Assembly (NCBI RefSeq): GCF_029227915.1 | Contig: NC_079881.1 | Coordinates: forward strand, 6,634,001-6,698,000 | Reading direction: 5' to 3' | DNA: 64,000 bases | Source of the DNA: Hydractinia symbiolongicarpus | Lineage: Eukaryota > Cnidaria > Hydrozoa > Anthoathecata > Hydractiniidae | In this document: positions 17,310 to 64,000 of the stretch, piece by piece | Layout: every line of letters begins with the position of its first letter | Numbering within the stretch: position 1 is the stretch's first letter | Notes under the pieces: model-generated | The model's database searches: none | What the model was told of the DNA's origin: nothing | Seen by the model: the letters and a program-made list of their open reading frames with translations, nothing else | Made by a program: the position numbers and the translations under genes

Positions 17310-17380
17310 AAAAGTTATAAGGCAATTAAATTTTTTACTATTTCAGTAATAACAGACTATCCAGTCTACAAGTAACGGTT

Positions 17381-27779: not shown

Positions 27780-28944
27780 TCATTTCATAGGAGAATATCA
27801 TTTTACACTATTATTTAAGACAAATTGCAATATGTAATTGGGCCAATCAAAAAGTTAAACCTGGGACCTCTCGCGCCTAAACCGAAAACCATTGCATTAG
27901 ACTAACAGGCCATGAAGAAAAATCAGGTGCGCGGAAGTTACAATTTTTTCAGCGAATTCTACGGAATATATAAGACGTCTCCACAACAAGAAGTTTGAAG
28001 TTAATTTGGTCAATTATCAAGTAAGCCCTGAAAATCGAATTGATAGAAGAAAATTGCCAAGAATACATTTTAAAAAATGTCAGTTCATATGCCGTTTATT
28101 CGTTATTGAAGGTTATGACACTTTGCACACATGTGGGATATGAAAATTGGGCATGTCCAGGAGTAAAACCAGGACCTGTCATTCCTTTGTCAAGACATAT
28201 CCAACAACGAGAATGTGGAAGCCGATTTCTTGAAATATCAAGATAGCTTTGAGAACCTAATTCATGGAATAACTCAATCAGATATTGTCAGTTCACACGA
28301 TATTACCTCTTAACAGCACAATGCTGTGATTTGTACGAACGAGTAATAAGTCATTACGCCTGCCTAAGAATTGAACCTGAGAAGTCCAGAGTCTGAAGCG
28401 AGAATCATACCACCAGACCAACGGACCAGGATGACCCTCAAAAGTGCAAGTATAACATTATATGCAGATAGTCTACTCAATATCTGGACGAAAGACGGTA
28501 AAAATAACTTAATTCTGTGTAAAATCATATACAAAAGAGGCAGTCTCAAGTTGATTTGTTAAATTTTCAACTAATCGCGAATCGAATTGATAAATAAAAT
28601 CCGTCAAGAATTCATTTCAACAATTGCCATTTTATAGGCCGTTTATTCCCTACAGTTAGTTATAGCACTTGCCAGTAATGGAGTGAACCTGGAGTGTGCC
28701 GCATCCTAAGCAAGAATTACACCACTAGACCAAAAAATTTCTTGAAATTTCAAATAATCTTGTGAATATAATTCACAATAGAACTCAGCCAAGAATACCT
28801 TTCAAAAATTTTCAGGTGAAAAGTCATTACCCCTTTACAGTAGAATGTGGTGTTTTGAAAATATTTGTGACAGGCAATTGAGACTGTCCGGGAGTTGAAC
28901 ACGGGACCTCTCGCACCCGAACTGAGAATCATACCGACTGATTT

Positions 28945-29250
28945 TTACCGACTGATAGCCTTGTGGTAGAGCGTTCGCTTTCAGTGCGGGAGGTCTTGGG
29001 TTCAAACCCTGGCCGAGTCATGCCAGAGACTATAAAAGTGTGAATCTATCCTTTCTGCTTAGCGTTCAGCATGAGAATAGGATTGATATCTTAGGCGGTT
29101 GTCTAGTGAAGCGATTGCTGTGCTTCCACGACTTTCGTAGCTCAAATGGGAGCTTTAAATGCGCTAGGACCCCCTTTGCAGGACCCTCGTTGATAGCAGT
29201 ACCAATAGGAACTGAAGAGGCTATCCTGGGTAAATAATAATAATAATAAT
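28945..29250 (+). mobile_element. tRNA-headed SINE, copy 2, inserted inside a tRNA-Pro unit
   Basis: Aligns with the SINE at 10.8 kb from TTACCGACTGATAGCC through GGCTATCCTGGGTAAATAAT and ends with an (AAT)n tail. On its left the tRNA-Pro copy is interrupted after GAGAATCATACC; on its right the same tRNA resumes with ACCACTAGACC. The shared ATACC is a candidate 5-bp target duplication, though partly ambiguous with the AAT tail. A short duplicate of ACCGACTGAT lies at the 5' edge. The B box GGTTCAAACCC is intact in this copy. Confidence 0.9.
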
Positions 29251-29536
29251 ACCACTAGACCAACAGGCCATAGTGACCGTCAAAACTATGTACGCAACAG
29301 TTTGTACATGGCCTTTGGCGAAATATTAATAACAAAGACGACAAAAATCTTCTTCCTTCTTCAAAACATCCCCAACATGAATGATAAAAAAATATTTCTT
29401 GAAATGTCAAGTCAACCTTGCAAATCCAATTCAAGGAAGAACTCAACCAAAGATATTTCTCAGCAATTGAGAGTTGATTAGTTGTTACAATCTATAGTAG
29501 AATGTAGTGTTTTGCGCAAATTTGCGATAGGAAATT

Positions 29537-29608
29537 GGGCCTGTCTGGGAGTTGAATCCGGGACCTCTCGCACCCGAAGCGAGAATCATACCACTAGACC
29601 AACAGGCC
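29537..29608 (-). pseudogene. tRNA-Pro(CGG)-like copy, nearly intact
   Basis: 72 nt. Acceptor stem GGCCTGT/ACAGGCC pairs fully, the anticodon loop TTCGGGT gives CGG, and the anticodon stem pairs. Two mismatches in the TPsiC stem (including an A before TTC) weaken the B box, so I call it a likely pseudogene. Confidence 0.6.
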
Positions 29609-29849
29609 ATGATATAATTGAAACATGCTAGTACGCCATTATAAGCAGAGCGTTGTAATGAATATCTTTATGAAAGAGGTTATAAATAGCTTGGTTTTGT
29701 GACAAAGTATATGGACAAAACGAAGTTTAAAGTTGATTTGTTAAATTCTCAAGCAAGTTCCGCGAATGGTATTGATACAACAAATCCGTCATGACTTTAT
29801 TTCTGCAATTTTCATTATATCACTTACCACTAATGTGCGATTTGTAATT

Positions 29850-29921
29850 GGGCCTGTCCGGGAGTTGAACCTGGGACCTCTCGCACCCGAAACGAGAATC
29901 ATACCACTAGACCAAAAGGCC
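29850..29921 (-). pseudogene. tRNA-Pro(CGG)-like copy, nearly intact
   Basis: 72 nt with anticodon CGG. There are mismatches in the acceptor stem (position 6), anticodon stem and TPsiC stem. The B box is close to consensus (GGTTCAACTCC). Confidence 0.55.
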
Positions 29922-30157
29922 ATGATATCATTGAAACATGCCAGTACGCCATTATAAGCAGAGCGTTGTAATGAATATCTTTATGAAAGAGGTTATAAAT
30001 AGCTTGGTTATGTGACAAAGCATGTAAACAAAACGGAGTGTAAAGTTAATTTGTTAAATTCTCAAGCAACTTCCGCAGATGGTAGTGATACAACAACTCC
30101 GCCAAGACTTCATTTCTGCAATTATCATTGTAGCACTTACCACACATGAGGAACTGT

Positions 30158-31150
30158 TGTTGTTGTTGTTGTTAATTTATTTATTGTCGGTTAAAATATG
30201 TACAAACAATACAATAGCTCTAATTAAAGTGCTAATCCAAACCGACATATAGACAGAAATATAAATACTATAAAAATAAAGTAAGTGAAATCAAAAGAAA
30301 AACAAATAACATATTTATGTTATTGTGAACAGACATCACAAGAACAATGCTGGCCATTAAAAATATTCAAAGATTCTGCTGTTTTCATATGATTGGGTAA
30401 TTTATTCCATATATTTGGACCTAGGGAAGTTAAACTTTTAGTTCCGAAACTTCTGGTATTTTTTCTTGGAACCTTGAGATTATTGACATTTTGTGATCTG
30501 ACAGATCTTTCACTTTGTTGGAAATCAAAAATGTCATGAATGTATGAAGAGTTAAGGCTATGCAAAGATTTGTAAATTTCTGTACATAGCGTTTTAAGCC
30601 TGTAAACACTCATGAAATTCCTTCCTGATTTTAAAAGCAGTTCCTCGTATGTACTATCGGAGTCGTCAAATAAAAAACGCAAAGCCCTTTTTTGTATTCT
30701 TTCAACTTTTAACAAAGATTTAGTAGATGAAAAATGCCACACTAATGGACAATAGTTAAAGTTGGAAAGTACAAAACTTTGAACAAGAGCAACCTTTGCT
30801 TTGTAAGTCAGAAACGTATCTAGCCTAACTAATGCATTCAATTGTGCCGATAGACTTTTTGATAAGTTCAGAAATGTGAAGATCAAAGTTTAATCTGTTG
30901 TCAATAGTCACACCCAATAACTTTACACTATTTTCTGTTTTGATAGTTTTATCGCCATTGTTAAATCTATGTCACAATTATTATTTTTGTTCCGTGTGAT
31001 TATAATGGATTGAAACTTTCCAGGATTAGCTATCATTTTGTTATATTTCAGCCACTCTAAAGCTGTGTTTGATTCACTTTGTAACAGTTTTATTAAGTTT
31101 GTAATCGAGTTAGAGTAAGCGGAAAGGGAATTGTCATCAGCATAATTGAG
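30158..31150 (-). mobile_element. 5'-truncated LINE (CR1/Jockey-like), reverse transcriptase C-terminal part
   Basis: On the minus strand two frames encode the end of a non-LTR reverse transcriptase: NYADDNSLSAYSNS (catalytic YADD near 31120-31150), then, in a second frame, YKAKVALVQSFVLSNFNYCP with VERIQKRALRFLFDD, a signature of the post-RT region in CR1/Jockey-type LINEs, and a final segment with GPNIWNKLPNHMK. A frame break lies between about 30886 and 30923. The 3' end has a (CAA)n tail on the minus strand (TTG repeats near 30148-30172 on plus). The left flank ends in CTTACCACACATG and the right resumes in GGTTATTGGGCC, both satellite sequence, so the fragment inserted into the tRNA-Pro array. 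Confidence 0.88.
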
Positions 31151-31163
31151 AAAACTGGTTATT

Positions 31164-31235
31164 GGGCCTGTCCGGAAGTTAAACCCGGGACCTCTCGCAC
31201 CCGAAGCGAGAATCATACCACTAGACCAACAGGCC
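31164..31235 (-). pseudogene. tRNA-Pro(CGG)-like copy with damaged B box
   Basis: 72 nt. Acceptor and anticodon stems pair and the anticodon is CGG, but the TPsiC loop reads TTTAACT instead of TTCAACT, which removes the invariant C56 and damages the internal promoter. Confidence 0.6.
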
Positions 31236-32575
31236 GGGATGTGATTTAAACCTGGGAGTATGTCATTATATGCAAAGAGGTGTACCCAATATCTGCAGAA
31301 AGAGGTTACAAACAGCTTCGTTGTGGACAAAGCATATACACAAAACGGAGTGTAACGTTGATTTGTGAAATTGTAAAGTAACATTTGCGAAACGAATTGA
31401 TTAAACAACGCCGTCAAGAATGCATTTCTAAAGTTCTCATTTTAATGGCCTATATTTTATACAGTATGTTATAACACTTACCACTAATGTGCAATTTGTA
31501 TTTGGGCCTGTCCGAGAATTGAACCCTGGACCTCTCGCACCTAAAGCGAGAAACGTACCACTAGACGAACAGGCCATGATATCCTTGAAACATGCGATTG
31601 TTTAATTATATGCAGAGCGTTGTACTGAATATCTGTACAAGGGAGGTTACAAATGGCTTGGTTATGTGACAAAACATATAGAAAAATCGGAGTGAAAAGT
31701 TAATTTGTTAAATTGTCAAGCAAGATCCACGAATGAAATTGATATAACAACTCCGACAAGACTTGATTTCTGCAATTTTCATTAAATCACTTACCACTGA
31801 TGTGCCATTTGTAATTAGGCCTGTCCGGAAGTTGAACCCAGAACCTCTCGCACCCTACGCAAAAATCATACCACTAGACCAACAGGCCATGTTATCTTTG
31901 AAACATGCAAGTGTGTCATTATATACAGAGAGGTGTACTGAATATCTGCAGAAAAGAGGTTACAAACAGCTTCGTTCGGGACAAAGCATATAGAAAAAAG
32001 GGAATGCAAATTTGATTTGTGAAATTGAAAAGTATCATTTAGGAAAGGATTTGATCAAACAACTCCGTCAAGAATTCTTTTCAAAATTTCTTATTTTAAT
32101 GATCCTGCATTCTTTACAGTATCTTATAACACTTACCACTAACGCGATTTGTAACTGGGCCTGTCCGGGAGGTGTACCCAGTACCTCTCTCACGCGAAGC
32201 AAGACTCATACTACTAGACCAACAGGCCATGATGTCCTTGAAACATGACAGTGTGCAATTATATGCAGGGGATTGTACTAAATATCTCTACGAAGGTTGT
32301 TACAAGTAGCTTGGTTATGTGACAAAGCATGTACACAAAACGGAGTGTAAAGTTAATTTGCTGAACTCTCAAGCATCTTCCGCAGATGGTAGTTATACAA
32401 TAACTCCGCCAAGACTTCATTTCTGTAATTATCATTATAGCACTTACCACACATGCTCAACTGGTTATTGTTCCTCAAGCAAGTTCCGCGAATGGAATTG
32501 ATACAATAAATCCGTCATGTCTTTATTTCTGCAATTTTCAGTATACCACACACTACTAATCTGCGATTTGTAATT

Positions 32576-32647
32576 GGGCCCGTCCGGGAGTTGAACCCGG
32601 GACCTCTCGCACCCGAAGCGAGGATCATACCGCTAGACCAACGGGCC
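32576..32647 (-). tRNA. tRNA-Pro (anticodon CGG), structurally complete
   Basis: 72 nt without intron or encoded CCA. Acceptor stem GGCCCGT/ACGGGCC pairs fully with discriminator C; the D arm carries the A box TGGTCTAGCGG; anticodon stem CTCGC/GCGAG encloses TTCGGGT (anticodon CGG, proline codon CCG); TPsiC stem CCGGG/CCCGG encloses TTCAACT with B box GGTTCAACTCC. It closely resembles animal tRNA-Pro genes. No run of four T follows on the transcribed strand close to the 3' end, which is atypical for a Pol III gene. Confidence 0.75.
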
Positions 32648-33814
32648 ATAGGAATCGTTAAAAATATTTACGCCACAGCTTATACAAGGTTTTTAGCAAA
32701 ATATTGATAGCATAGGCGAAAGAAAATTGTTCCTTCTTCAAAACTTCATAACAAAAATGTTGAATATTATTACTTGAAATGTCAAGTCAATTTTACGACA
32801 GCATATCACGAAAGATATCAGGCAAAAATATTTTTCAGCAATTGTCACTTGATTGGTTAGTACCCTTTGCAGTAGAGTGTGGTGTTATGCACAAGTTTGC
32901 GATAGGCAATTCGGACTGTCCAGCAGTTCCATTAAAAACCTCTCTGGCCATGATATCCTTGAAACATGCGATTGTGCAATTATATGCAGAGCGTTGTACT
33001 GAACATCTGTACAAAAGAGGTCACTAATAGCTTGGTTATGTGACAAAGTATATAGACAAAACGAAGTGTAAAGTTGATTTGTTAAATTCTCAACGAATTT
33101 TCGCGAATGGAATTGATACAACCAATGGGTCAAGACTTTATTTCTGCAACTTTCATTATATCACTTACCACTAATGTGCAATTTGTATTTGGGCCTGTCC
33201 GGAGTTGAACCCGCGACCTCCCACACCCTAAGCAAGAATCATACCACTAGACCAACAGGCCATGATATGTTTGAGACATGCAAGTGTACCATTATATGCA
33301 GTGGGGTGTGCCAGATATCTGTACAACGGAGGTTACAAATGGGTTAGTTATGTGACAAAGCATATAGACAAAACGGAGTGAAAAGTTAATTTGTTAATTT
33401 TTCAAGCAAGGTCCGCAAATAGAAATGATACAACAACTCCGTCAAAACTTTATTTCTGCAATTTTCATTATAGCACTTACCAAAATTAGCAATTGGTTAT
33501 TGGGCCGGTCCGGGAGATAAACCCAGAACCTCTCGCACCCTAACCAAGAATCATACCACTAGACCAACAGGCCATGATATCATCGAAATATGCCAGTACG
33601 TCATTATAAGCAAAGCGTTGTACTGAATATCTTTATGAAAGAGGTTATAAATAGATTGGTTATGTGACAAAGCATGTAGACAAAACGAAGTGTAAAGTTG
33701 ATTTGTTAAATTCTCAAGCAAGTTCCGCGAATAGAATTGATTGAACAAATCCGTCAAGTCTTTTTTTCTGCAATTTTCATTATATCACTTACCACTAATG
33801 TGCGATTTGTGATT

Positions 33815-33886
33815 GAGCCTGTCCGGGAGTTGAACCCGGGACCTCTCGCACCCGAAGCGAGAATCATACCACCAGACCAACGGGCC
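33815..33886 (-). pseudogene. tRNA-Pro(CGG)-like copy, nearly intact
   Basis: 72 nt. Anticodon and TPsiC arms are intact with anticodon CGG; the acceptor stem has one mismatch and one G-T pair. It may still fold, so this is a borderline call. Confidence 0.55.
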
Positions 33887-35047
33887 TTAGGCATCGATAG
33901 AAATATTTACGCCACAGCTTATACATTGTTTTAGGCAAAATATCGATGGCATAGACGAAAAAAGTTGTTCCTTCTTCAAAACGTCATATCAAAAATGTTG
34001 AATAATATTTCTTGAAAAGTCAAGTCAACATTACGAAAGCATATCACAAAAGATATCTGGGGAAAGTATTTTTCAGCAATTGTCACTTGATTGGTTATTG
34101 CCCTTTACGATAGAATGTGGTGTTTTGCACACTTTCGCGATAGGCAAGGGAGCCTGTCCGGCATTTGAAACTGGGATGTCTCACACCCAAAGCAAGAATC
34201 ATAACACTAGACCAACAGGCCATGATATGCTTAAGGCATGCGAGTGTGTCATTATATACAGAGAGGTGTACTGAATATCTGCAGAAAAGAAGTTAAGAAC
34301 AGCTTCGTTTAGGACAAAGCATATAGAAAAAAAGGGAATGTAAATTTGATTTGTGAAATTGTAAATTATCATTTAGGAAAGGCTTTGATCAAACAACTCC
34401 GTCAAGAGTTCTTTTCAAAATTTCTTATTTTAATGATCCTGTATTCTTTACAGTATGTTATAACACTTACCACTAACGTGCGATTTGTAACTGGGCCTGT
34501 GCGGGAGGTGTATCCAGAACCTCTCGCACGCGAAGCAAGACTTATACCACTAGACCAACGGGCCATGATGTCCTTGAAACATGAGAGTGTGCAATTATAT
34601 GCAGGGGATTGTACTAAATATCTCTACGAAGGATGTTACAAGTAGCTTGGTTATGTGACAAAGCATGTACACAAAACGGAGTGTAAAGTTAATTTGCTGA
34701 ACTCTCAAGCATCTTTCGCGAATGGTAGTTATACAATAACTCCGCCAAGACTTCATTTCTGTAATTATCATTATAGCACTTACCACACATGCTCAACTGG
34801 TTATTGGGCCTGTCCGGGAGATGAACCCGGCATATCTCCCGCCCGAAACGAGAATCATACCACTAGACCAACAGGCCAGGATATCATTGAAATATGCCAG
34901 TACGTCATTATAAGCACAGCGTTGTACTGAATATCTTTATGAAAGAGGTTATAAATAGATTGATTATGTGACAATGTATATAGACAAAAAGAAGTGTAAA
35001 GTTGATTTGTTAAATTCTCAAGCAAGTTCTGCGAATGGAATTGATAC

Positions 35048-38000
35048 ATCCGCGTTCAAGATGGCGTATCTTGGTCTGTTCATTTGCTTTTGACGACTAT
35101 ATTTTGTTGCATTGTTTGGAAAAGGAGTCATTGTAGCACAGATGTTTACAATAATGTAGGAATATCACTAACACAAGATTATGTTAAAACGATGTGGAAT
35201 TTACAGTACACAAGTAAACATAAAAAGTTACGAACAAACGATCGCTTTTTGGTGATCATTCTTTTACTTTCTGGAGATATCGAAACTCAACCTGGACCCG
35301 AAGGAAGATTGCCAGAGCTATGGAAATTACTTGGTCAGAGAGGTCTAAAAGTTTTCCACCAAAATGTAAGAGGATTACTTGTAAATATAGATGGAGTAAA
35401 AACTTTGTTATGCGATTTTAAAGGGATTGATATTCTTACATTATCAGAAACACACATAAACACTGATACATTCAACGAAAATTGTGAACTTTACCGTCTG
35501 CCGGGGTACACATTTATAAATCGTAACAGAAAGAAGGGTACTTGTGGTGGCGTCGGAATGTATATTTCTGAAAGAGCAAAGTGGGTACGTAGAGAAGACC
35601 TAGAAAACGAGAAAGTTGAATGTATTTGGATTGAAATTTTTTTGAAAATTGGAAAGAGTTTTCTTGTAGGATCGTTATACAGACCCCCGGTTGGATCCAA
35701 ATATCTACCATCAAACTTTAGCTCGCTATTAAACGATATGCTTGATATAGTAATTAGTGAATTAAAAGAAGTTACAATCCTTGGAGACGGAAATGTTAAT
35801 TATCTTAAGAAAGATAATAATAAAGAAGTTAAAGACGTTTTTGTTCATTTTGGTTTTGAACAAATTGTTAAAAAAGCAACAAAAATTACCAACGACTCTA
35901 GAACGTTAATTGACACCATTTTTACAACGCATCGAACAAACATTCCATCTTATGACGTCATACCAACTAGCATAGGAGATCATGATATGGTTGGCTACGT
36001 ACGTAAAATAAACTCTGAGAAATTCAAACCTAAGAATATAAAATGCAGAAACTATTTAAATTATGACCACGTTAAAATGTGCGAAGAGTTGCGTAATAAA
36101 AACTGGGAGCCTTTATATCTATGTACAAATGTAAACACTGCATGGTCGTTTTTTAAAGACAAGGTTACAAACATTTTCAACAAACATGCACCAGTAATTG
36201 ATAAACGTGTAAAAGGTCGTTTATGCCCTTGGATGACAACTGATATCCGTGTATTAATGACTGACAGGGACAAAGCACTACGTTACGCTCGGAAAACCAA
36301 TAAAGCCTGTGACTGGACCGCATATAAAAAACTGCGAAACAAGTGCACAAATGCTGTGAACATGGCTAAGTTTAATTCCAACAAAAAGCTTTTAGAAGAA
36401 AATTCAGATAAACCAAGAAAGTTTTGGCAGACAATAAAAAACATCATGCCTTGCAAATCCAAAGGAACGTCCTGTAGATCACATTTTCTTGAAGACGGTT
36501 GTGTTAAAGCTGACACTCTTGTTCAAAAATCTAACCTACTAAGCAATTTCTTTTCAAATGTTGCAATGACTTTAAAAAAGAAATCCATTTTCATGAAAGA
36601 TTTCATTTGGCGCCAACCAAACAAAGTCGAACCAATAACGACACAAAGGTTTGATTTTAAATATGTTTCCAAGTCTTTTGTAGAAAAGGAATTGAAGAAC
36701 TTAAAACGCCACAAGGCAACTGGTATTGATAACCTTCCACCAGCTTTGATGAAAGATAGTGCTAATGAAATATCACAACCGCTATGTTTCATAATAAACT
36801 TGTCACTGAGTACAGCAGATGTACCTACAGAATGGAAACACGCTACTGTTACACCAATACACAAGTCGGGACCATCTACCAAAGTTGACAACTATCGTCC
36901 AATTTCGATTCTACCAATTGCCTCAAAAATCCTTGAACGAGCTGTACATACACAATTGATGGAACACCTGGAGAAAAATAATTTGCTTTCTGAGCAACAG
37001 TTCGGATATCGACGTAAGAGATCAACTGATATTGCAGCTACAGTATTCCTCGACAGCATTCGTACTGAAATTGATCGTGGAAATTTAGTTGGAGCAACCT
37101 TTATAGATTTGTCTAAAGCCTTCGACACAGTGGGCCACAGTATTGTGCTATCAAAGCTACCATCTTTTGGCATTCACGACAATGAGTTAAAATGGTTCAC
37201 CGACTACCTTTTCAATCGGAAACAACAAGTCGTTTATAAAAATTCGAAATCCAACGTTTCAAATATAACATGCGGTGTTCCACAAGGCTCCATTTTAGCA
37301 CCCTTGTTGTTTTTGATTTACTTCAACGATTTTAAATCAGCTCTATGTAAGAGTAAAACAGTGAAATTTGCTGATGACACCGTGTTGTATGTTGCACACA
37401 AGTCCGTACAGGATATTGAAAATGCTTTGAATGATGAACTTAAAAATATATCGACATATCTCGCAAATAACGATCTAGTTATAAATTTGAAAAAGGGTAA
37501 AACAGAGGTGATGTTATTTGGTAGTGGGAAAAAATTGTCATCTATACCACACAAACCGAATATTAAATTTGGTACAGTTGATATTAACGTAACAAAGCGC
37601 TACAAGTATCTTGGTTCTACAATTGATCCAACTCTAACTCTATCAGATAGCTTCAACAAAAGATATAAAAAAGCTTCTTCTCGTTTACGTCTGTTACAAA
37701 ATCTGAGAAAGAACATGGACAATAAAACTGCCACATCAATTTACAACACTATGATTATACCACTGGTAGTTTTCAACAGTATCATAAATTTGAACTTCTC
37801 AAGAACCGAAATAAATAAATTCAATTCTCTGGACAGCCGTGCAAAACAGATAACCAAAAACGCAAACATCAAATCAACTTACACTGTTATTTTGCGACAT
37901 GCTTGTAAAACGGTTAAGAAATGCATTGCTGGTGAAACATGTAGTAACATGAAAGAATACTTTGAAGTAAATTCTCACTCCAAATGCACGAGAAACTAAA

Positions 38001-38636
38001 ATTGTTTGCTGAAGATTCCAAAAATCAAATTGGAAGTAACACGAGGCAGTTTTCGTTATATGGGAGCGAAAATATATAACAGTTTGCCACTAGATATACG
38101 AAAAGCGACAACTGTGAATGATTTTAATCAAAAGATCAAAGATTTCGTATTTTAGATTATTATTTACCTAATATTTTTACGGTGGTTCTTGATTTCTTTT
38201 TATCAACAGCTCTCTATTTTTGGTCTCGTATTAGTTTTCAACATTTTATTTTTTCTCACATTCGTTTCAATCTATCTAACTATTTATTTTGAAGAACATA
38301 TTATGTTATATAACATGTGCGCAGACTTATCATTTATAGTTTTCTACTTTTGATATATATTTAGTAAATTTACCCTTCTCTCTCACATTTGTTTGGATTA
38401 TAGTCTGTTTGGGTATGTTTGTTATCTTCTCTGTCTATTATATAAATATATTTCTTTTGAATAGTTTTCTACTTTTTACCATATCTATAGTAATTTTACA
38501 GCATATTTTATATACAAATTATTTTTTTAAATCATTATTTTTATATTTTAAACAGGACACATATTTAGAGCAGTTTTTTAAAACTGAATTGTACACATCC
38601 TGTATAAATATTTTGATAAATAAAAAAAAAAAAAAA
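35048..38636 (+). mobile_element. Near-full-length CR1-like LINE inserted in the satellite
   Basis: About 3.6 kb from a 5' end near ATCCGCGTTCAAGATGG to a terminal run of 15 A. It carries one long ORF with endonuclease and reverse transcriptase. The left flank (ATTGATAC) and right flank (ACAATAAATCCGTCATG) together rebuild the uninterrupted satellite sequence seen at about 32496-32516, which fixes the insertion site; the target duplication is short (ACA or similar) or ambiguous. A 650-bp AT-rich 3' UTR separates the ORF and the tail. Confidence 0.92.
35192..37999 (+). CDS. LINE ORF: 2A-like motif, AP endonuclease and reverse transcriptase
   Basis: From the first in-frame ATG the ORF has 935 codons. 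Residues 29-36 read DIETQPGP after a Leu/Ile-rich stretch, a 2A-like motif with Gln where Asn is usual. The apurinic-type endonuclease follows (HQNVRGL, LSETHI, GSLYRPP, GDGNVNYL, GDHDMV), then the reverse transcriptase with RPISILPIASKILER, FIDLSKAFDTV, GVPQGSILAPLLFLIYFND and the catalytic FADD at 37367-37378. The TAA at 37997-37999 is probably premature: the same frame continues to TAG at 38153-38155 with a conserved-looking KLEVTRGSFRYMGAKIYNSL end segment typical of LINE C-termini. Domain order matches CR1/L2-type elements. The rest of the ORF is unbroken, so the copy is young. An open extension 5' to 35084 lacks ATG. Confidence 0.93.
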   Translation: MWNLQYTSKHKKLRTNDRFLVIILLLSGDIETQPGPEGRLPELWKLLGQRGLKVFHQNVRGLLVNIDGVKTLLCDFKGIDILTLSETHINTDTFNENCELYRLPGYTFINRNRKKGTCGGVGMYISERAKWVRREDLENEKVECIWIEIFLKIGKSFLVGSLYRPPVGSKYLPSNFSSLLNDMLDIVISELKEVTILGDGNVNYLKKDNNKEVKDVFVHFGFEQIVKKATKITNDSRTLIDTIFTTHRTNIPSYDVIPTSIGDHDMVGYVRKINSEKFKPKNIKCRNYLNYDHVKMCEELRNKNWEPLYLCTNVNTAWSFFKDKVTNIFNKHAPVIDKRVKGRLCPWMTTDIRVLMTDRDKALRYARKTNKACDWTAYKKLRNKCTNAVNMAKFNSNKKLLEENSDKPRKFWQTIKNIMPCKSKGTSCRSHFLEDGCVKADTLVQKSNLLSNFFSNVAMTLKKKSIFMKDFIWRQPNKVEPITTQRFDFKYVSKSFVEKELKNLKRHKATGIDNLPPALMKDSANEISQPLCFIINLSLSTADVPTEWKHATVTPIHKSGPSTKVDNYRPISILPIASKILERAVHTQLMEHLEKNNLLSEQQFGYRRKRSTDIAATVFLDSIRTEIDRGNLVGATFIDLSKAFDTVGHSIVLSKLPSFGIHDNELKWFTDYLFNRKQQVVYKNSKSNVSNITCGVPQGSILAPLLFLIYFNDFKSALCKSKTVKFADDTVLYVAHKSVQDIENALNDELKNISTYLANNDLVINLKKGKTEVMLFGSGKKLSSIPHKPNIKFGTVDINVTKRYKYLGSTIDPTLTLSDSFNKRYKKASSRLRLLQNLRKNMDNKTATSIYNTMIIPLVVFNSIINLNFSRTEINKFNSLDSRAKQITKNANIKSTYTVILRHACKTVKKCIAGETCSNMKEYFEVNSHSKCTRN

Positions 38637-41376: not shown

Positions 41377-41448
41377 GGGCCTGTCCGGGAGTTGAACTCG
41401 GGACCTCTCGCACCCTAAGCGAGAATCATGCTACTAGACCAACAGGCC
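41377..41448 (-). pseudogene. A-type tRNA-Pro(AGG) copy, one TPsiC-stem mismatch
   Basis: 72 nt. Acceptor stem and anticodon arm (TTAGGGT, AGG) pair fully; the TPsiC stem has one A-C mismatch and the D loop reads TAGTAGCATGA. Confidence 0.55.
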
Positions 41449-42055
41449 ATAGGAATTGTCTAAAATATTTAGGGAACAACTTGTTCATGGTCTTACGTGA
41501 AATATCCATCATACCGAACACAAGAAATATTGTTTTTTCGACAAAACATTCATAACATGAATGTTGAACATTATTTCTTGAATTTTCAAGTCAACCATAC
41601 AATCCAAGCCACGAAAAAGCTTAACCATAATATTTTTCAGCAATTGTCAGTTGATTGGTTACTACGCTTTACAGTAGAATATAGTTTTATGCACAAATTT
41701 ACGATAAGCAATTGGACCTGTGTGGGAGTTTAACCTGCGGCATCTCAAACCAGAAGGGAGAATCATACTATTGGACCAACAGGCCAGGATATCATTGAAC
41801 CCTGCGATTGTGTCATTATATGCAGAGAGGATTACTAAATATTTTTAGAAAAGGTGTTACAAATAGCTTCTTCGTGGGCAATGCATGTAGACAAATCGGA
41901 GTGTAAAGTTGATTTGTAAAATTTTAAAGTAACATTTTCGAAACGAATCCGTAAAACAACTCTGTCAAGAATTCATTTCGAGAATTGTCATTCCAGAGAT
42001 AGTAAATGCTTCACCAAAGATTATGACACTTACCAATTATGCATTGTTTTTAGTT

Positions 42056-52294: not shown

Positions 52295-52366
52295 GGGCCT
52301 GTCCGGGAGTTGAACCCGGGACCTCTCGCACCCTAAGCGAGAATCATGCCACTAGACCAACAGGCC
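52295..52366 (-). tRNA. tRNA-Pro (anticodon AGG), structurally complete, within the satellite
   Basis: 72 nt, all stems intact: acceptor GGCCTGT/ACAGGCC, anticodon stem CTCGC/GCGAG around TTAGGGT (AGG, read as IGG after deamination; proline codons CCU/CCC/CCA), TPsiC stem CCGGG/CCCGG around TTCAACT. A box TGGTCTAGTGG and B box GGTTCAACTCC fit Pol III consensus. Discriminator is C and CCA is not encoded. No TTTT terminator is seen on the transcribed strand for about 130 bp beyond the 3' end. It is the only perfect A-type copy I found in the dimeric part. Confidence 0.72.
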
Positions 52367-55300
52367 ATAGGAATCGTTTAAAATACTTAGGCAACAACTT
52401 GTTCATGGTCTTACGTGAAATATCCATCACACAACACAAAAAATGTTGTTTTTTCTTCAAAACAGACATAACATGAATGTTGGATATTATTTCTTGAATT
52501 GTCAAGTCAACCATACAATCCAAGGCACGAAAAAGCTCAACCATAATATTTTTCAGCAATTGTCAGTTGATTGGTTATTACACTTTACAGTAGAATATAG
52601 TCTTAGGGAAAAATTTGCGATAAGCAATTGGGTCTTGCGGGAGTTTAACCTGCAACATCTCACACCAGAAGCGAGAGTCATACTAATACACCAACAGGCC
52701 AGGATATCATTAAAACCTCTGATTATATCATTATATGCAGAGAGGAAAACTGAATATCTGTAGGTAAGAGGTTACAAATAGCTTCCTCGTGGGCAATGCA
52801 TATAGACAAATCGGAGTGTAAAGTTGATTTGTAAAATGGTAAAGTAACATTTTTGAATCAAATGCGTAAAACAACTCTGTCAACAAGTCGTTGTGAGAAT
52901 CGTCATTCCAGAGATAGTAAATGCTTCACCGAAGCTTATGACACTTACCAATTATGTGTGATTTGTAGTTGGGCCTGACCGGGAGTTGAACCCGGGACCT
53001 CTCGCACCCTAAGCCAGAAACATGCCACTAGACCAATAGCCCATAGGAGTCGTCTAAAATATTTAGGGAACAACTTATTCATGGTCTTACGTGTAATATC
53101 CATCACACAGAACACAAAAAATGTTGTTTTTTCTTCAAAACATTCATAACATGAATGTTGGATATTATTTCTTGAATTGTCAAGTCAAAATACAAATCCA
53201 AGCTCAACCAAAATATTTTTCAATAATTGTCAGTTGATTGGTGAATACACTTTACAGTGGAATATAGTCTTAGGCAAAAATTTTCGATAAGCAATTGGGT
53301 CTTGCGGGAGTTTAACCTGCAACATCTCGCACCAGAAGCGAGAGTCATACTAACAGACCAACAGGCCAGGATATCATTGAAACCTCTGATTATATCATTA
53401 TATGCAGAGAGGATTACTGAATATCTGTAGGTAAGAGGTTACAAATAGCTTCCTCGTGGGCAATGCATATAGACAAATCGGAGTGTAAAGTTGATTTGTA
53501 GAATTGTAAAGTAACATTTTCAAAACGAATCCATAAAACAACTCTGTCCAGAATTCATTTCCAGAATCGTCATTCCAGAGATAGTAAATGCTTTACCAAA
53601 GCTTATGACACTTACCAATTATGTATGATTTTTAGTTGGGCCTGTCCGGGAGTTGAAGCCGGGACCTTTCGCACCCTAAGCCAGAATCATGCCACTAGAC
53701 CAACAGGCTATAGGAATCGTTTAAAATATTTAGGCAACAACTTGTTCATGGTCTTACGTGAAATATCCATCACACAACTCAAAAAATGTTGTTTTTTCTT
53801 CAAAACGAACATAACATAAATGTTGGTTATTATTTCTTGAATTGTCAAGTCAACCATGCAACCCAAGGCACGAAAAAGCTCAACCATAATATTTTTCAGC
53901 AATTGTCAGTTGATTAGTTACTACCCGTTACAGTAGAATATAGTCTTATGCACAAATTTGCGATAAGCAATTGCGCCTGTGCGGGAGTTTAACCTGCAAC
54001 ATCTCGCACCAGAAGCGAGAGTCATACTAATAGACCAACAGGCCAGGATATCATTGAAACCTCTGATTATATCATTATATGCAGAGAGGATTACTGAATA
54101 TCTGTAGGTAAGAGGTTACAAATAGCTTCCTCGTGGGCAATGCATATAGACAAATCGGAGTGTAAAGTTGATTTGTAGAATTGTAAAGTAACATTTTCAA
54201 AACGAATCCATAAAACAACTCTGCCCAGAATTCATTTCGAGAATCGTCATTCCAGAGATAGTAAATGCTTCACCAAAGCTTATGACACTTACCAATTATG
54301 TATGATTTTTAGTTGGGCCTGTCCGGGAGTTGAAGCCGGGACCTTTCGCACCCTAAGCCAGAATCATGTCACTAGTCCAACAGGCTATAGGAATCGTTTA
54401 AAATATTTTGGCAACAACTTGTTCATGGTCTTACGTGAAATATCCATCACACAACTCAAAAAATGTTGTTTTTTCTTCAAAACGAACATAACATAAATGT
54501 TGGTTATTATTTCTTGAATTGTCAAGTCAACCATGCAACCCAAGGCACGAAAAAGCTCAACCATAATATTTTTCAGCAATTGTCAGTTGATTAGTTACTA
54601 CCCGTTACAGTAGAATATAGTCTTATGCACAAATTTGCGATAAGCAATTGCGCCTGTGCGGGAGTTTAACTTGCGACATCTCGCACCAGAAGCGAGAATC
54701 ATACTAATAGACCAACAGGCCAGGATATCATTGAAACCTCTGATTGTGTCATTATATACAGAGACGATTACTGAATATTTGTAGGAAAGGGTTTACAAAT
54801 AGCTTCCTCGTGGGCAATGCATTTAGACAAATCGGAGTGTGAAGATGATTTGTAAAATTGTAAAGTAACATGTTTGAAACAAATCCGTAAAACAACTCTG
54901 TCAAGAAGTCATTTTGAGAATCGTCATTCCGGAGATAGTAAATGCTTCACCGAAGCTTATGACACATACCAATTATGTGTGATTTGTAGTTGGGCTTCTC
55001 CGGGAGTTGAACCCTGGACCTCTCACCCCCTAAACCAGAAACATGCCACTAGACCAACAGCCCATAGGAATCGTCTAAAATATTTAGGGAAGAACTCATT
55101 CATGGTCTTACGTGAAATATCCATCACACAGAACACAAAAAATGTTGTTTTTTCTTCAAAACATTCATAACATGAATGTTGGATATTATTTCTTGAATTG
55201 TCAAGTCAAAATACAAATCCAAGCTCAACCAAAATATTTTTCAGCAATTGTCAGTTGATTGATTATTACACTTTACAGTAGAATATAGTCTTAGGCAAAA

Positions 55301-55658
55301 ATTTTCGGTAAGCCATTGGGTCTTCCGGGAGTTTAACTTGCAACATCTCGCACCAGAAGCGAGGGTCATACTAATATACCAACAGTCCAGGATATCATTG
55401 AAACCTCTGATTATATCATTTTATGCAGAGAGGATTACTGAATATCTGTAGAAAAGGGGTTACAAATGGCTTCCTCGTGGGCAATGCATATAGACAAATC
55501 GGAATGTAAAGTTGATTTGTAAAATTGTAAAGTAACATTTTCGAAACAAATCCGTAAAACAACTCTGTCAAGAATTCATTTCGAGAATCGTCATTCCAGA
55601 GATAGTAAATGCTTCACCGAAGCTTATTACACTTACCAATTATGCATTGTTTTTAGTT

Positions 55659-55730
55659 GGGCCTGTCCGGGAGTTGAACCCGGGACCTCTCGCACCCTAA
55701 GCGAGAATCATGCCACTAGACCATCAGGCC
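55659..55730 (-). pseudogene. A-type tRNA-Pro(AGG), single acceptor mismatch
   Basis: All stems pair except position 7:66 (A-A). A and B boxes are intact. It could be functional; identical copies follow at 56867 and 58888. Confidence 0.55.
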
Positions 55731-56866
55731 ATAGGAATCGTTTAAAATATTTAGCCAACAACTTGTTCACGGTCTTACGTGAAATATCCATCACACAACT
55801 CAAAAAATGTTGTTTTTTCTTCAAAACGAACATAACATAAATGTTGGTTATTATTTCTTGAATTGTCAAGTCAACCATGCAACCCAAGGCACGAAAAAGC
55901 TCAACCATAATATTTTTCAGCAATTGTCAGTTGATTAGTTACTACCCGTTACAGTAGAATATAGTCTTATGCACAAATTTGCGATAAGCAATTGCGCCTG
56001 TGCGGGAGTTTAACCTGCAACATCTCGCACCAGAAGCGAGAGTCATACTAATAGACCAACAGGCCAGGATATCATTGAAACCTCTGATTATATCATTATA
56101 TGCAGAGAGGATTACTGAATATCTGTAGGTAAGAGGTTACAAATAGCTTCCTCGTGGGCAATGCATATAGACAAATCGGAGTGTAAAGTTGATTTGTAGA
56201 ATTGTAAAGTAACATTTTCAAAACGAATCCATAAAACAACTCTGTCCAGAATTCATTTCGAGAATCGTCATTCCAGAGATAGTAAATGCTTCACCAAAGC
56301 TTATGACACTTACCAATTATGTATGATTTTTAGTTGGGCCTGTCCGGGAGTTGAAGCCGGGACCTTTCGCACCCTAAGCCAGAATCATGTCACTAGACCA
56401 TCAGGCTATAGGAATCGTTTAAAATATTTTGGCAACAACTTGTTCATGGTCTTACGTGAAATATCCATCACACAACTCAAAAAATGTTGTTTTTTCTTCA
56501 AAACGAACATAACATAAATGTTGGTTATTATTTCTTGAATTGTCAAGTCAACCATGCAACCCAGAAGCGAGGGTCATACTAATATACCAACAGTCCAGGA
56601 TATCATTGAAACCTCTGATTATATCATTTTATGCAGAGAGGATTACTGAATATCTGTAGAAAAGGGGTTACAAATGGCTTCCTCGTGGGCAATGCATATA
56701 GACAAATCGGAATGTAAAGTTGATTTGTAAAATTGTAAAGTAACATTTTCGAAACAAATCCGTAAAACAACTCTGTCAAGAATTCATTTCGAGAATCGTC
56801 ATTCCAGAGATAGTAAATGCTTCACCGAAGCTTATTACACTTACCAATTATGCATTGTTTTTAGTT

Positions 56867-56938
56867 GGGCCTGTCCGGGAGTTGAACCCGGGACCTCTCG
56901 CACCCTAAGCGAGAATCATGCCACTAGACCATCAGGCC
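56867..56938 (-). pseudogene. A-type tRNA-Pro(AGG), single acceptor mismatch
   Basis: Identical to the copy at 55659, 1208 bp away, as part of the recent duplication. Confidence 0.55.
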
Positions 56939-58887
56939 ATAGGAATCGTTTAAAATATTTAGCCAACAACTTGTTCACGGTCTTACGTGAAATATCCATC
57001 ACACAACTCAAAAAATGTTGTTTTTTCTTCAAAACGAACATAACATAAATGTTGGTTATTATTTCTTGAATTGTCAAGTCAACCATGCAACCCAAGGTAC
57101 GAAAAAGCTCAACCATAATATTTTTCAGCAATTGTCAGTTGATTAGTTACTACCCGTTACAGTAGAATATAGTCTTATGCACAAATTTGCGATAAGCAAT
57201 TGCGCCTGTGCGGGAGTTTAACCTGCAACATCTCGCACCAGAAGCGAGAGTCATACTAATAGACCAACAGGCCAGGATATCATTGAAACCTCTGATTATA
57301 TCATTATATGCAGAGAGGATTACTGAATATCTGTAGGTAAGAGGTTACAAATAGCTTCCTCGTGGGCAATGCATATAGACAAATCGGAGTGTAAAGTTGA
57401 TTTGTAGAATTGTAAAGTAACATTTTCAAAACGAATCCATAAAACAACTCTGTCCAGAATTCATTTCGAGAATCGTCATTCCAGAGATAGTAAATGCTTC
57501 ACCAAAGCTTATGACACTTACCAATTATGTATGATTTTTAGTTGGGCCTGTCCGGGAGTTGAAGCCGGGACCTTTCGCACCATAAGCCAGAATCATGTCA
57601 CTAGTCCAACAGGCTATAGGAATCGTTTAAAATATTTTGGCAACAACTTGTTCATGGTCTTACGTGAAATATCCATCACACAACTCAAAAAATGTTGTTT
57701 TTTCTTCAAAACGAACATAACATAAATGTTGGTTATTATTTCTTGAATTGTCAAGTCAACCATGCAACCCAAGGCACGAAAAAGCTCAACCATAATATTT
57801 TTCAGCAATTGTCAGTTGATTAGTTACTACCCGTTACAGTAGAATATAGTCTTATGCACAAATTTGCGATAAGCAATTGCGCCTGTGCGGGAGTTTAACT
57901 TGCGACATCTCGCACCAGAAGCGAGAATCATACTAATAGACCAACAGGCCAGGATATCATTGAAACCTCTGATTGTGTCATTATATACAGAGACGATTAC
58001 TGAATATTTGTAGGAAAGGGTTTACAAATAGCTTCCTCGTGGGCAATGCATTTAGACAAATCGGAGTGTGAAGATGATTTGTAAAATTGTAAAGTAACAT
58101 TTTTGAAACAAATCCGTAAAACAACTCTGTCAAGAAGTCATTTTGAGAATCGTCATTCCGGAGATAGTAAATGCTTCACCGAAGCTTATGACACATACCA
58201 ATTATGTGTGATTTGTAGTTGGGCTTCTCCGGGAGTTGAACCCTGGACCTCTCACCCCCTAAACCAGAAACATGCCACTAGACCAACAGCCCATAGGAAT
58301 CGTCTAAAATATTTAGGGAAGAACTCATTCATGGTCTTACGTGAAATATCCATCACACAGAACACAAAAAATGTTGTTTTTTCTTCAAAACATTCATAAC
58401 ATGAATGTTGGATATTATTTCTTGAATTGTCAAGTCAAAATACAAATCCAAGCTCAACCAAAATATTTTTCAGCAATTGTCAGTTGATTGATTATTACAC
58501 TTTACAGTAGAATATAGTCTTAGGCAAAAATTTTCGGTAAGCCATTGGGTCTTCCGGGAGTTTAACTTGCAACATCTCGCACCAGAAGCGAGGGTCATAC
58601 TAATATACCAACAGTCCAGGATATCATTGAAACCTCTGATTATATCATTTTATGCAGAGAGGATTACTGAATATCTGTAGAAAAGGGGTTACAAATGGCT
58701 TCCTCGTGGGCAATGCATATAGACAAATCGGAATGTAAAGTTGATTTGTAAAATTGTAAAGTAACATTTTCGAAACAAATCCGTAAAACAACTCTGTCAA
58801 GAATTCATTTCGAGAATCGTCATTCCAGAGATAGTAAATGCTTCACCGAAGCTTATTACACTTACCAATTATGCATTGTTTTTAGTT

Positions 58888-58959
58888 GGGCCTGTCCGGG
58901 AGTTGAACCCGGGACCTCTCGCACCCTAAGCGAGAATCATGCCACTAGACCATCAGGCC
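58888..58959 (-). pseudogene. A-type tRNA-Pro(AGG), single acceptor mismatch
   Basis: Identical to the copy at 55659, 3229 bp away, as part of a longer duplication. Confidence 0.55.
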
Positions 58960-61921
58960 ATAGGAATCGTTTAAAATATTTAGCCAACAACTTGTTCACG
59001 GTCTTACGTGAAATATCCACCTAACAACACAAAAAATGTTGTTTTTTCTTCAAGACAATCATAACATGAATGTTGGATATTATTTCTTGAATTTTCAAGT
59101 CAACCGTACAATCCAAGCCACGAAAAAGCCCAACCATAATATTTTTCAGCAATTGTCAGTTGATTGGTTACTACCCTTAACAGTAGAATATAGTCTTATG
59201 CATAAATTTGCGATAAGCAATTGGACCTGTGCGGGAGTTTAACCCGCGACCTCTCGCACGCTAAGCGAGAATCATGCCACTAGACCATCAGGCCATAGGA
59301 ATCGTCTAAAATATTTAGGCAACAACTTCTTCATGGTCTTACGTGAAATATCCATCACACAACACAAAAAATGTTGTTTTTTCTTCAAAACAATCATAAC
59401 ATGAATGTTGGATATTATTTCTTTAATTGTCATGTCAACCATACAATCCAAGCCACAAAAAAGCTCAACCATAATATTTTTCAGCAATTGTCAGTTGATT
59501 GGTTACTACTCTTTACAGTAGATTATAGTCTTATGCACAAATTTGCGATAAGCAATTGGGCCTGTGTGGGAGTTTAACCTGAGGCATCTCGCACCACAAG
59601 CGAGAATCATACTAATAGACCAACAGGCCAGGATATCATTGAAACCTGCGATTGTGTCATTATATGCAGAGAGGATTACTGAATATTTGTAGGAAGGGGG
59701 TTACAAATCGCTTCCTCGTGGGCAATGCATATAGACAAATTGGAGTGTAAAGTTGATTTGTAAAATGGTAAAGTAACATTTTTGAATCAAATCCGCAAAA
59801 CAACTCTGTCAACAAGTCATTGTGAGAATCGTCATTCCAGAGATAGTAAATGCTTCACCGAAGCTTATGACACTTACCATATATGTGTGATTTGTAGTTG
59901 GGCCTGTCCGGGAGTTGAACCCGGGACCTCTCGCACCCTAAGCCAGAAACATGCCACTAGACCAATAGCCCATAGGAGTCGTCTAAAATATTTAGGGAAC
60001 AACTTATTTATGGTCTTACGTGAAATATCCATCACACAGAACACAAAAGATGTTGTTTTTTCTTCAAAACAATCATAACATGATTGTTGGATATTATTTC
60101 TTGAATTGTCAAGTCAAAATAAAAATCCAAACTCAACCAAATTTTTTTCAATAATTGTCAGTTGATTGGTTAATACACTATACAGTGGAATATAGTCTTA
60201 GGCAAAAATTTTCGATAAGCAATTGGGTCTTGCGGAAGTTTAACCTGCAACATCTCGCACCAGAAGCGAGAGTCATACTAATAGACCAACAGGCCAGGAT
60301 ATCATTGAAACCTCTGATTATATCATTATATGCAGAGAGGATTACTGAATATCTGTAGGTAAGAGGTTACAAATAGCTTCCTCGTGGGCAATGCATATAG
60401 ACAAATCGGAGTGTAAAGTTGATTTGTAGAATTGTAAAGTAACATTTTCAAAACGAATCCATAAAACAACTCTGTCCAGAATTCATTTCGAGAATCGTCA
60501 TTCCAGAGATAGTAAATGCTTCACCAAAGCTTATGACACTTACCAATTATGTATGATTTTTAGTTGGGCCTGTCTGGGAGTTGAAGCCGGGACCTTTCGC
60601 ACCCTAAGCCAGAATCATGCCACTAGACTAACAGGCTATAGGAATCGTTTAAAATATTTAGGCAACAACTTGTTCATGGTCTTACGTGAAATATCCATCA
60701 CACAACTCAAAAAATGTTGTTTTTTCTTCAAAACGAATATAACATAAATGTTGGTTATTATTTCTTGAATTGTCAAGTCAACCATGCAACCCAAGGCACG
60801 AAAAAGCTCAACCATCATATTTTTCAGCAATTGTCAGTTGATTAGTTACTACCCGTTACAGTAGAATATAGTCTTATGCACAAATTTGCGATAAGCAATT
60901 GCGCCTGTGCGGGAGTTTAACCTGCGACATCTCGCACCAGAAGCGAGAATCATACTAATAGACCAACAGGCCAGGATATCATTGAAACCTCTGATTGTGT
61001 CATTATATACAGAGACGATTACTGAATATTTGTAGGAAAGGGTTTACAAATAGCTTCCTCGTGGGCAATGCATTTAGACAAATCGGAGTGTGAAGATGAT
61101 TTGTAAAATTGTAAAGTAACATTTTCGAAACAAATCCGTAAAACAACTCTGTCAAGAAGTCATTTTGAGAATCGTCATTCCGGAGATAGTAAATGCTTCA
61201 CCGAAGCTTATGACACTTACCAATTATGTGTGATTTGTAGTTGGGCTTCTCCGGGAGTTGAACCCTGGACCTCTCACCCCCTAAACCAGAAACATGCCAC
61301 TAGACCAACAGCCCATAGGAATTGTCTAAAATATTTAGGGAACAACTTGTTCATGGTCTTACGTGAAATATCCATCATACCGAACACAAGAAATATTGTT
61401 TTTTCGACAAAACATTCATAACATGAATGTTGAACATTATTTCTTGAATTTTCAAGTCAACCATGCAATCCAAGCCACGAAAAAGCTCAACCATGATATT
61501 TTTCAGCAATTGTCAGTTGATTGGTTACTACGCTTTACAGTAGAATATAGTCTTATGCACAAATTTGCGATAAGCAATTGGGCCTGTGTGGGAGTTTAAC
61601 CTGCGGCATCTCGCACCAGAAGGGAGAATCATACTAATAGACCAACAGGCCAGGATATCATTGAAACCTGCGATTGTGTCATAATATGCAGAGAGGATTA
61701 CTAAATATTTGTAGAAAAGGGGTTACAAATAGCTTCTTCGTGGGCAAGGCATGTAGACAAATCGGAGTGTAAAGTTGATTTGTAAAATTTTAAAGTAACA
61801 TTTTCGAAACGAATCCGTAAAACAACTCTGTCAAGAATTCATTTCGAGAATCGTCATTCCAGAGATAGTAAATGCTTCACCAAAGATTATGACACTTACC
61901 AATTATGCATTGTTTTTAGTT

Positions 61922-61993
61922 GGGCTTGTCCGGGAGTTGAATCCGGGACCTCTCGCACCCTAAGCGAGAATCATGCCACTAGACCAACAGGCC
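61922..61993 (-). pseudogene. A-type tRNA-Pro(AGG) copy
   Basis: Anticodon arm intact with AGG; one TPsiC-stem mismatch (A before TTC) and one acceptor mismatch at position 4. Confidence 0.5.
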
Positions 61994-62258
61994 ATAGGAA
62001 TCGTCTAAAATATTTAGGAAACAATTTGTTCATGGTCTAACGTGAAATATCCATCACACCGAACACAAAAAATATTGTTTTTTCGACAAAACATTCATAA
62101 CATAAATGTTGGACATTATTTCTTGAATTGTCAAGTCAACCATACAATCCAAGCCACGAAAAAGCTCAACCATAATATTTTTCAGCAATTGTCAGTTGAT
62201 TGGTTACTACCCGTTACAGTAGAATATAGTCTCATGCACAAATTTGCGATAAGCAATT

Positions 62259-62330
62259 GGGCCTGTGCGGGAGTTTAACCTGCGACATCTCGCACCAGAA
62301 GCGAGAATCATACTAATAGACCAAGAGGCC
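62259..62330 (-). pseudogene. Representative B-type tRNA relic of the dimer
   Basis: Read on the minus strand the D arm (TTGGTCTATTAGTATGA) and anticodon stem (CTCGC/GCGAG) survive, but the loop is TTCTGGT, placing CTG at 34-36, and the TPsiC loop is TTAAACT, so the invariant TTC and the B box are lost. The same changes recur in B-type units throughout 40-64 kb, so they were fixed before the dimer was amplified. Confidence 0.65.
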
Positions 62331-64000
62331 AGGATTTCATTGAAACCTCCGATTGTGTCATTATATGCAGAGAGGATTACTGAATATCTGTAGGTAAGAG
62401 GTTACAAACAGATTCATCGTGGGAAATGCATATAGACAAATCGGAGTGTAACGTTGATTTGTGAAATTGTAAAGTATCATTTTCCAAACGAATCCATAAA
62501 ACAACTCTGTCAACAAGTCATTGTGAGAATCGTCATTCCAGAGATAGTAAATGCTTCACCGAAGCTTATGACACTTACCAATTATGTGTGATTTGTAGTT
62601 GGGCCTGTCCGGGAGTTGAACCCGGGACCTCTCGCACCCTAAGCCAGAAACATGCCACTAGACCAATAGCCCATAGGAGTTGTCTAAAATATTTAGGGAA
62701 CAACTTATCTATGATCTTACGTGAAATATCCATCACACAGAACACAAAAGATGTTGTTTTTTCTTCAAAACATTCATAACATGAATGTTGGATATTATTT
62801 CTTGAATTGTCAAGTCAAAATACAAATCCAAACTCAACCAAATTATTTTTCAATAATTGTCAGTTGATTGGTTAATACACTATACAGTGGAATATAGTCT
62901 TAGGCAAAAATTTTCGATAAGCAATTGGGTCTTGCGGAAGTTTAACCTGCAACATCTCGCACCAGAAGCGAGAGTCATACTAATAGACCAACAGGCCAGG
63001 ATATCATTGAAACCTCTGATTATATCATTATATGCAGAGAGGATTACTGAATATCTGTAGGTAAGAGGTTACAAATAGCTTCCTCGTGGGCAATGCATAT
63101 AGACAAATCGGAGTGTAAAGTTGATTTGTAGAATTGTAAAGTAACATTTTCAAAACGAATCCATAAAACAACTCTGTCCAGAATTCATTTCGAGAATCGT
63201 CATTCCAGAGATAGTAAATGCTTCACCAAAGCTTATGACACTTACCAATTATGTATGATTTTTAGTTGGGCCTGTCCGGGAGTTGAAGCCGGGACCTTTC
63301 GCACCCTAAGCCAGAATCATGCCACTAGACCAACAGGCTATAGGAATCGTTTAAAATATTTAGGAAACAACTTGTTCATGGTCTTACGTGAAATATCCAT
63401 CACACAACTCAAAAAATGTTGTTTTTTCTTCAAAACGAATATAACATAAATGTTGGTTATTATTTCTTGAATTGTCAAGTCAACCATGCAACCCAAGGCA
63501 CGAAAAAGCTCAACCATCATATTTTTCAGCAATTGTCAGTTGATTAGTTACTACCCGTTACAGTAGAATATAGTCTTATGCACAAATTTGCGATAAGCAA
63601 TTGCGCCTGTGCGGGAGTTTAACCTGCGACATCTCGCACCAGAAGCGAGAATCATACTAATAGACCAACAGGCCAGGATATCATTGAAACCTCTGATTGT
63701 GTCATTATATACAGAGACGATTACTGAATATTTGTAGGAAAGGGTTTACAAATAGCTTCCTCGTGGGCAATGCATTTAGACAAATCGGAGTGTGAAGATG
63801 ATTTGTAAAATTGTAAAGTAACATTTTCGAAACAAATCCGTAAAACAACTCTGTCAAGAAGTCATTTTGAGAATCGTCATTCCGGAGATAGTAAATGCTT
63901 CACCGAAGCTTATGACACTTACCAATTATGTGTGATTTGTAGTTGGGCTTCTCCGGGAGTTGAACCCTGGACCTCTCACCCCCTAAACCAGAAACATGCC

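Follow-up and report, generated by a model that had tools for sequence, protein, structure and literature searches.

The right-hand part of a 64,000-nucleotide stretch of the Hydractinia symbiolongicarpus genome (the window: contig NC_079881.1, positions 6,634,001 to 6,698,000) is a tandem array of tRNA-Pro-derived segments, most likely a tRNA-Pro gene cluster that was amplified into satellite-like DNA and is now mostly dead. We base this reading on the anatomy of the array, on its duplications at several scales, on the absence of visible constraint on the tRNA in its recent part, and on a deep split among its better-kept copies along which the tRNA has diverged less than its spacer. Apparently, this one locus displays several stages in the passage from tRNA cluster to satellite-like DNA: a decayed edge, older monomers, a dimeric amplification, and a 1.2-kb duplication that is still 99.67% identical.

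Extent and composition of the array

Searching with a 75-mer tRNA query, we found 93 tRNA-like segments of at least 10 bits between 27,838 and 63,999, all with the gene orientation on the minus strand; the same query scored at most 4.9 bits in 20 dinucleotide shuffles of the window. ARAGORN, run with its bacterial setting, called 53 tRNAs in the window and none in dinucleotide shuffles; the calls comprise 43 Pro (36 AGG, 6 CGG, and 1 TGG), 7 Gln(CTG), and one each of Leu, Arg, and Ala. With fast filters, at least 32 sites pass the threshold of Rfam RF00005, and this count is a lower bound because a permissive scan of 27001-42000 finds 14 sites at the same threshold where the fast scan finds 9. 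The first-pass annotation had described a tRNA-Pro-like repeat on the minus strand over the right half of the window, and these data bear it out. It was also right that the segments are many and mostly decayed, but the count is 93 rather than about 70.

Neighboring segments lie close together: 90 of the 92 start-to-start steps are shorter than 1000 bp, within the spacing that has been used to define tDNA clusters (neighbors less than 1000 nt apart; PMC2888827), and the other two, of 1314 and 3903 bp, each contain a LINE or LINE-like insertion. Of the traits that characterize satellite DNA (long tandem arrays, genome-wide abundance, heterochromatic location), the locus displays the first: its units are strung head to tail over a long distance and have turned over repeatedly. 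Left of 27,600, models of the unit (tRNA plus spacer) match only one 43-bp stretch, at 10831-10873 on the minus strand (array tRNA/type-B model, E 9e-4). Just left of the array, at 27640-27710, a further decayed tRNA-like remnant is possibly visible by eye, at a place where the searches gave no match. Viral and prokaryote contigs searched with the tRNA core yielded no match, nor did viral contigs searched with a spacer 25-mer.

The remainder of the window, left of the array, contains other features. A 1506-aa open frame at 563-5080 (minus strand) matches Helitron_like_N (1.2e-61) and PIF1 helicase (1.4e-53), and a 138-bp unit is present at 5307-5584 in two tandem copies with 100% matches. Open pieces at 6405-9766 (plus strand) resemble a protein-primed DNA polymerase with a YMDTDS motif and presumably belong to a Maverick/Polinton-type element; the three pieces scanned there have no Pfam match. 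Open frames for a rhodopsin-type receptor (7tm_1) and a DEG/ENaC channel (ASC) lie at 16206-19846 (plus strand) and fit an animal genome; at 22524-24860 (plus strand) an open frame of 778 aa contains four KH_1 stretches.

Table 1 Features of the array. Identities refer to a 72-mer reference that is the right-hand type-A sequence and thus favor type A.
Feature	Position	Strand	Details
Whole tRNA-Pro-derived tandem array	27838..64000	-	93 tRNA-like segments; right end beyond the window
Most decayed edge, five tRNA-like segments	27838..28951	-	58-75% identity to the 72-mer reference
SINE-like insertion (separate tRNA-like head, (AAT)n tail)	28938..29245	+	Identified by eye
Older irregular monomers, 15 tRNA-like segments	29535..39395	-	82-94% identity to the 72-mer reference
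LINE-like insertion	30143..31160	-	Translation inspected by eye
LINE (reverse transcriptase, A-rich tail) interrupting a monomer	35046..38633	+	Pfam RVT_1 4.7e-34; junctions
Dimeric higher-order array	39696..64000	-	35 type-A, 34 type-B, and 3 hybrid monomers, 1 cut off at the window end (73 segments)
Hybrid monomer, tRNA B-like on the left and A-like on the right	40698..40771	-	Further hybrids at 44407 and 59221
Copy in which both boxes and every tested stem pair are kept	52295..52366	-	Pro(AGG); the only such copy in the right part
1208-bp tandem duplication, 99.67% identical	55353..57771	.	Near-identical block of 1211 bp

A dimeric right part and an older left part

In the right part the repeat unit measures about 677 bp and is dimeric, with a better-kept Pro(AGG) monomer (type A) alternating with a decayed monomer (type B). 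Most steps alternate between 341-342 and 334-335 bp, with an additional sub-type of 324-326 bp, which refines the spacing of about 335 bp given in the first-pass annotation. Type A is readable as a tRNA-Pro, with an AGG anticodon in 34 of 35 copies. In type B, CTG stands at the anticodon position in 29 of 34 copies, and C56 (T-loop/B box) is replaced by A in all 34; over the whole array, 42 of the 93 copies have another base in place of C56 (37 have A, 5 have T).

Over 74 positions, the type-A and type-B consensus sequences agree at about four in five. We detected no relation between the right-part consensus spacers of the two types (local score 25; shuffles, mean 19 and maximum 32), and therefore the tRNA is the only sequence detectably common to both halves of the dimer. 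Two spacers thus take the place of the single shared one that had been described. In the three hybrid monomers the switch from B-like to A-like sequence falls inside the tRNA, and features common to all three suggest that they go back to one event that was copied later.

The left part is less regular. Its spacers are mostly B-type, with a few A-type units, and 10 of its 19 steps measure 311-343 bp. The array is interrupted here by a SINE-like insertion and by LINE or LINE-like pieces. The SINE-like insertion sits inside a tRNA-Pro copy in the opposite orientation, cutting the fifth edge segment, and it gives a sub-threshold Rfam tRNA match (23.7 bits, 28950-29020, plus strand). Around the LINE-like insertion, homology to the array ends at about 30143 and restarts at about 31161; the two open pieces of this insertion have no Pfam match. 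Edge repeats that are older and bear insertions, with more regular repeats inside, are the pattern expected under unequal exchange, and the contrast between left and right would fit maintenance of the array by this process.

Few copies retain the features of a functional tRNA gene

In a functional tRNA family, most members have an intact cloverleaf with A and B boxes, and a T4 terminator lies near the 3' end. We scored 20 stem pairs together with the two boxes on the sequence alone, using generic box patterns. Three of the 93 copies are intact by this test, those whose segments start at 32574 and 38707 in the left part (32576-32647 and 38709-38780, both CGG) and at 52293 in the right part (AGG). 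Both boxes are kept in 28 of 93 copies when aligned copies are compared, or in 30 of 93 in a free pattern scan. Among the 35 type-A copies, an acceptor pair is broken in 31 and an anticodon-stem pair in 23.

Terminators are likewise poorly placed. A T4 lies within 20 nt of the 3' end in none of the 39 A-class copies (35 type A, 3 hybrids, and the one cut off), which are related by descent and hence not 39 independent trials, in 14 of 34 type-B copies, and in 4 of 20 left copies; random array positions have one within 20 nt in 21% of cases. For the three intact copies (32574, 38707, and 52293), the nearest T4 is 235, 72, and 99 nt away. In the 14 type-B copies a run of four or more T lies about 15-16 nt downstream (e.g. 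43057, 47013, and 48362), at a position where no A-class copy has one. Because intact copies are few and T4 is distant, most of the array is expected to yield no tRNA; most copies would be silent, and a few, at most, could still be transcribed.

These data bear directly on whether the array still functions as a multigene tRNA-Pro cluster and source of tRNA, with the pseudogenes as by-products, a reading that we consider unlikely. The three intact copies (two CGG, one AGG) speak for it, as does the low tRNA divergence on the deep type-A split described below, but 90 of the 93 copies fail at least one test, broken variants recur (position 7-66, for example, is unpaired in 12 of 35 type-A copies), no A-class copy has a close terminator, and the recent part shows no constraint on the tRNA. 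The proposal in the first-pass annotation that the array is a source of tRNA finds weak support in these data. Nevertheless, these three, together with the copies that keep both boxes, would leave room for some function.

Probable past constraint on the tRNA, not visible in the recent copies

To gauge recent constraint, we compared tRNA with spacer in 28 full dimers of the right part, the set that remains when six intervals outside 640-700 bp are removed from 34 successive A-to-A intervals. Mean pairwise divergence in type A is 0.084-0.087 for the tRNA and 0.086-0.088 for the spacer; in type B, it is 0.084-0.086 for the tRNA and 0.074 for the spacer. Variable sites number 32 of 72 in tRNA-A, 94 of 260 in spacer-A, 27 of 72 in tRNA-B, and 87 of 267 in spacer-B, so that a lower density in tRNAs than in spacers was not found among the 28 dimers (Fisher p 0.22 for A and 0.14 pooled). 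Among close pairs the tRNA differs more than the spacer, with ratios up to 4 (A) and 9 (B) below a spacer distance of 0.02, as is partly expected of pairs picked for low spacer distance.

The same comparison weighs on a second alternative, in which selection would preserve the array for its internal Pol III promoter boxes (as TFIIIC sites, or as a chromatin or replication boundary) although it no longer makes tRNA, and in which B-box-dead units alternate with mostly B-box-live ones. We think such a selected structural array quite improbable: both boxes do persist in 28-30 of the 93 copies, but the tRNA of recent dimers, boxes included, is no more conserved than the spacer when whole tRNAs are compared, and C56 of the B box is absent from nearly half of the array (42 of 93).

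The older copies give a different picture. Between the right-hand type-A consensus and the old copies 32574, 33813, and 38707, we counted 7, 6, and 5 differences in 74 tRNA positions and 55, 60, and 52 in 228 spacer positions (p 0.007, 0.0006, and 0.002); since the copies have common ancestry, these p-values overstate independence, and the comparison is in effect of one branch. Along this deep split the type-A tRNA has diverged about a third as much as its spacer. When pairs are binned by spacer distance, the ratio of tRNA to spacer divergence in type A is 0.46 (spacer distance 0.25-0.3) and 0.41 (0.3-0.4); in type B, it is 0.87 and 0.76 for the same bins. Comparing old type-B copies with the right-hand consensus (7 of 12 tested), we found a lower tRNA figure in all seven, with one p below 0.05 and one of 0.054. 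Pairwise identities computed with loose gap costs were discarded, as shuffled spacers reached about 0.7.

We read the lower tRNA divergence as the trace of past constraint, clear for type A, weak or lost earlier for type B, and gone in recent copies. The type-A tRNA was probably constrained once, and type B may have been under some past constraint as well. Within the acceptor stem, one paired T-A is changed to C-G in 32574 and to T-G in 38707, which hints at past constraint, but three other copies carry an unpaired C-A there. Exchange with tRNA genes elsewhere could mimic the same signal.

Origin and turnover of the array

Duplications at lags of 3958, 3229, 2699, and 1208 bp, with identities of 95.3-99.7%, show turnover at several scales. 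At the joint of the 1208-bp duplication, where 3 bp are shared, spacer is fused to an interior point midway along a tRNA. We make no claim that the tRNA is a recombination hotspot; when every 72-bp window of the dimer is ranked by reshuffling relative to its flanks, those over the two tRNAs come at 0.70-0.90, which is suggestive but unexceptional.

The preferred history that would account for these observations begins with a nuclear tRNA-Pro gene cluster. It would have been amplified head-to-tail, initially as monomers, as in the left part, and next in units of two genes, about 677 bp long, as in the right part, with unequal exchange as the putative agent alongside tandem duplication. Member B of the pair would have died early, while member A would have remained under tRNA constraint for a time; recent A copies would now drift like spacer, leaving satellite-like DNA with a decaying old edge. 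Among the possibilities raised in the first-pass annotation, the data favor the amplification of a tRNA gene into a satellite.

A tRNA-headed retroposon turned tandem would offer another route to such a satellite, and we regard it as very unlikely. Its attraction is a unit of about 335 bp composed of a tRNA-like part and unrelated sequence, for which precedents exist (PMC10702118). A SINE origin sits poorly, however, with the same tRNA being followed by two spacers without detectable relation, with the full tRNA-Pro cloverleaf kept in the best copies, and with a 27.6-kb left flank that gave just the one weak 43-bp match to the unit models.

That the array is an artefact of assembly, as near-identical blocks such as the one of 1211 bp at 99.67% might suggest, is hardly credible given that we found no exact repeats of 1000 bp or more, that dimers differ from one another by about 7-9% on average, and that separate insertions mark the older part. 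We also rejected a retrozyme, since Rfam finds no hammerhead in the whole window at the gathering threshold or in 27001-42000 on a permissive scan; retrozyme tandem repeats of about 300 bp are known in a coral (PMC7229834).

Comparison with known systems

Large tDNA clusters as such are known in a cnidarian; the remark on cnidarians in the first-pass annotation concerned a tRNA-Pro unit organized like a satellite. Nematostella vectensis has more than 17,000 tDNAs, of which 89% are clustered, and local duplication is the prime suspect for the growth of tDNA clusters generally (PMC2888827). As in Nematostella, zebrafish, and other clusters in that survey, many tDNAs here lie less than 1 kb apart when pseudogenes are included in the count along with genes; in Nematostella and teleosts some clusters have fifty or more members, with most pairs in parallel orientation as here (PMC2888827). 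In contrast, Nematostella pairs are mostly heterogeneous (PMC2888827), whereas the copies here go back to tRNA-Pro and form a dimeric unit of which one member is dead.

Tandem tRNAs of one isotype recall the Pro, Tyr-Ser, and Cys clusters of Arabidopsis (PMC11700998, PMC10701932). Chromosome 1 of that plant carries 25 or 27 tandem tRNA-Pro genes, and its tDNA clusters are largely methylated and repressed (PMC11700998); its tRNA-Cys cluster repeats a unit of about 0.42 kb and has a tRNA-Cys pseudogene at its edge (PMC10701932). The Arabidopsis clusters differ in having fewer copies than the present array, and a high-confidence filter retains all four annotated Cys genes (PMC11700998, PMC10701932).

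Tandem repeats holding a tRNA-like part are found in amphibians as newt PolIII/TAN, Xenopus OAX, and Rana/polIII, with lengths of about 360 nt in the newt and 250 nt in Rana (PMC10702118). Their likeness is to other tRNAs or weaker (64% over 64 nt in Rana), and, unlike here, the available part of that source describes no dimer (PMC10702118); for the newt family, retroposition of tRNA-Glu is given as the origin in a title cited there (via PMC10702118). The human tRNA VNTR at 1q23.3 likewise places tRNA genes in a long tandem repeat, one that varies in copy number, but its unit is 7.3 kb and tRNA genes make up less than 6% of it (PMC4041453), compared to about 22% for tRNA-like segments in the right part of our array. 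In Schistosoma japonicum, about 650 of 951 tRNA pseudogenes derive from tRNA-Pro-CGG; a tandem arrangement like the one here is not stated in the part of the source available (PMC2770079). Satellites derived from 5S rDNA also have a Pol III gene as their source, but it is 5S rRNA rather than tRNA, judging by titles cited in PMC12692304.

The literature searched yielded no description of a tRNA-Pro satellite with a dimeric unit; the search did not use 'dimer' itself as a query, and most subscription papers lay outside its coverage. The locus also warns that dead copies still called by gene finders may inflate tRNA counts in genomes of this sort, with 53 ARAGORN calls here versus 3 copies fully intact by the test used. 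Set beside these systems, the array is a clear, dissected case of a kind already known, not a new kind.
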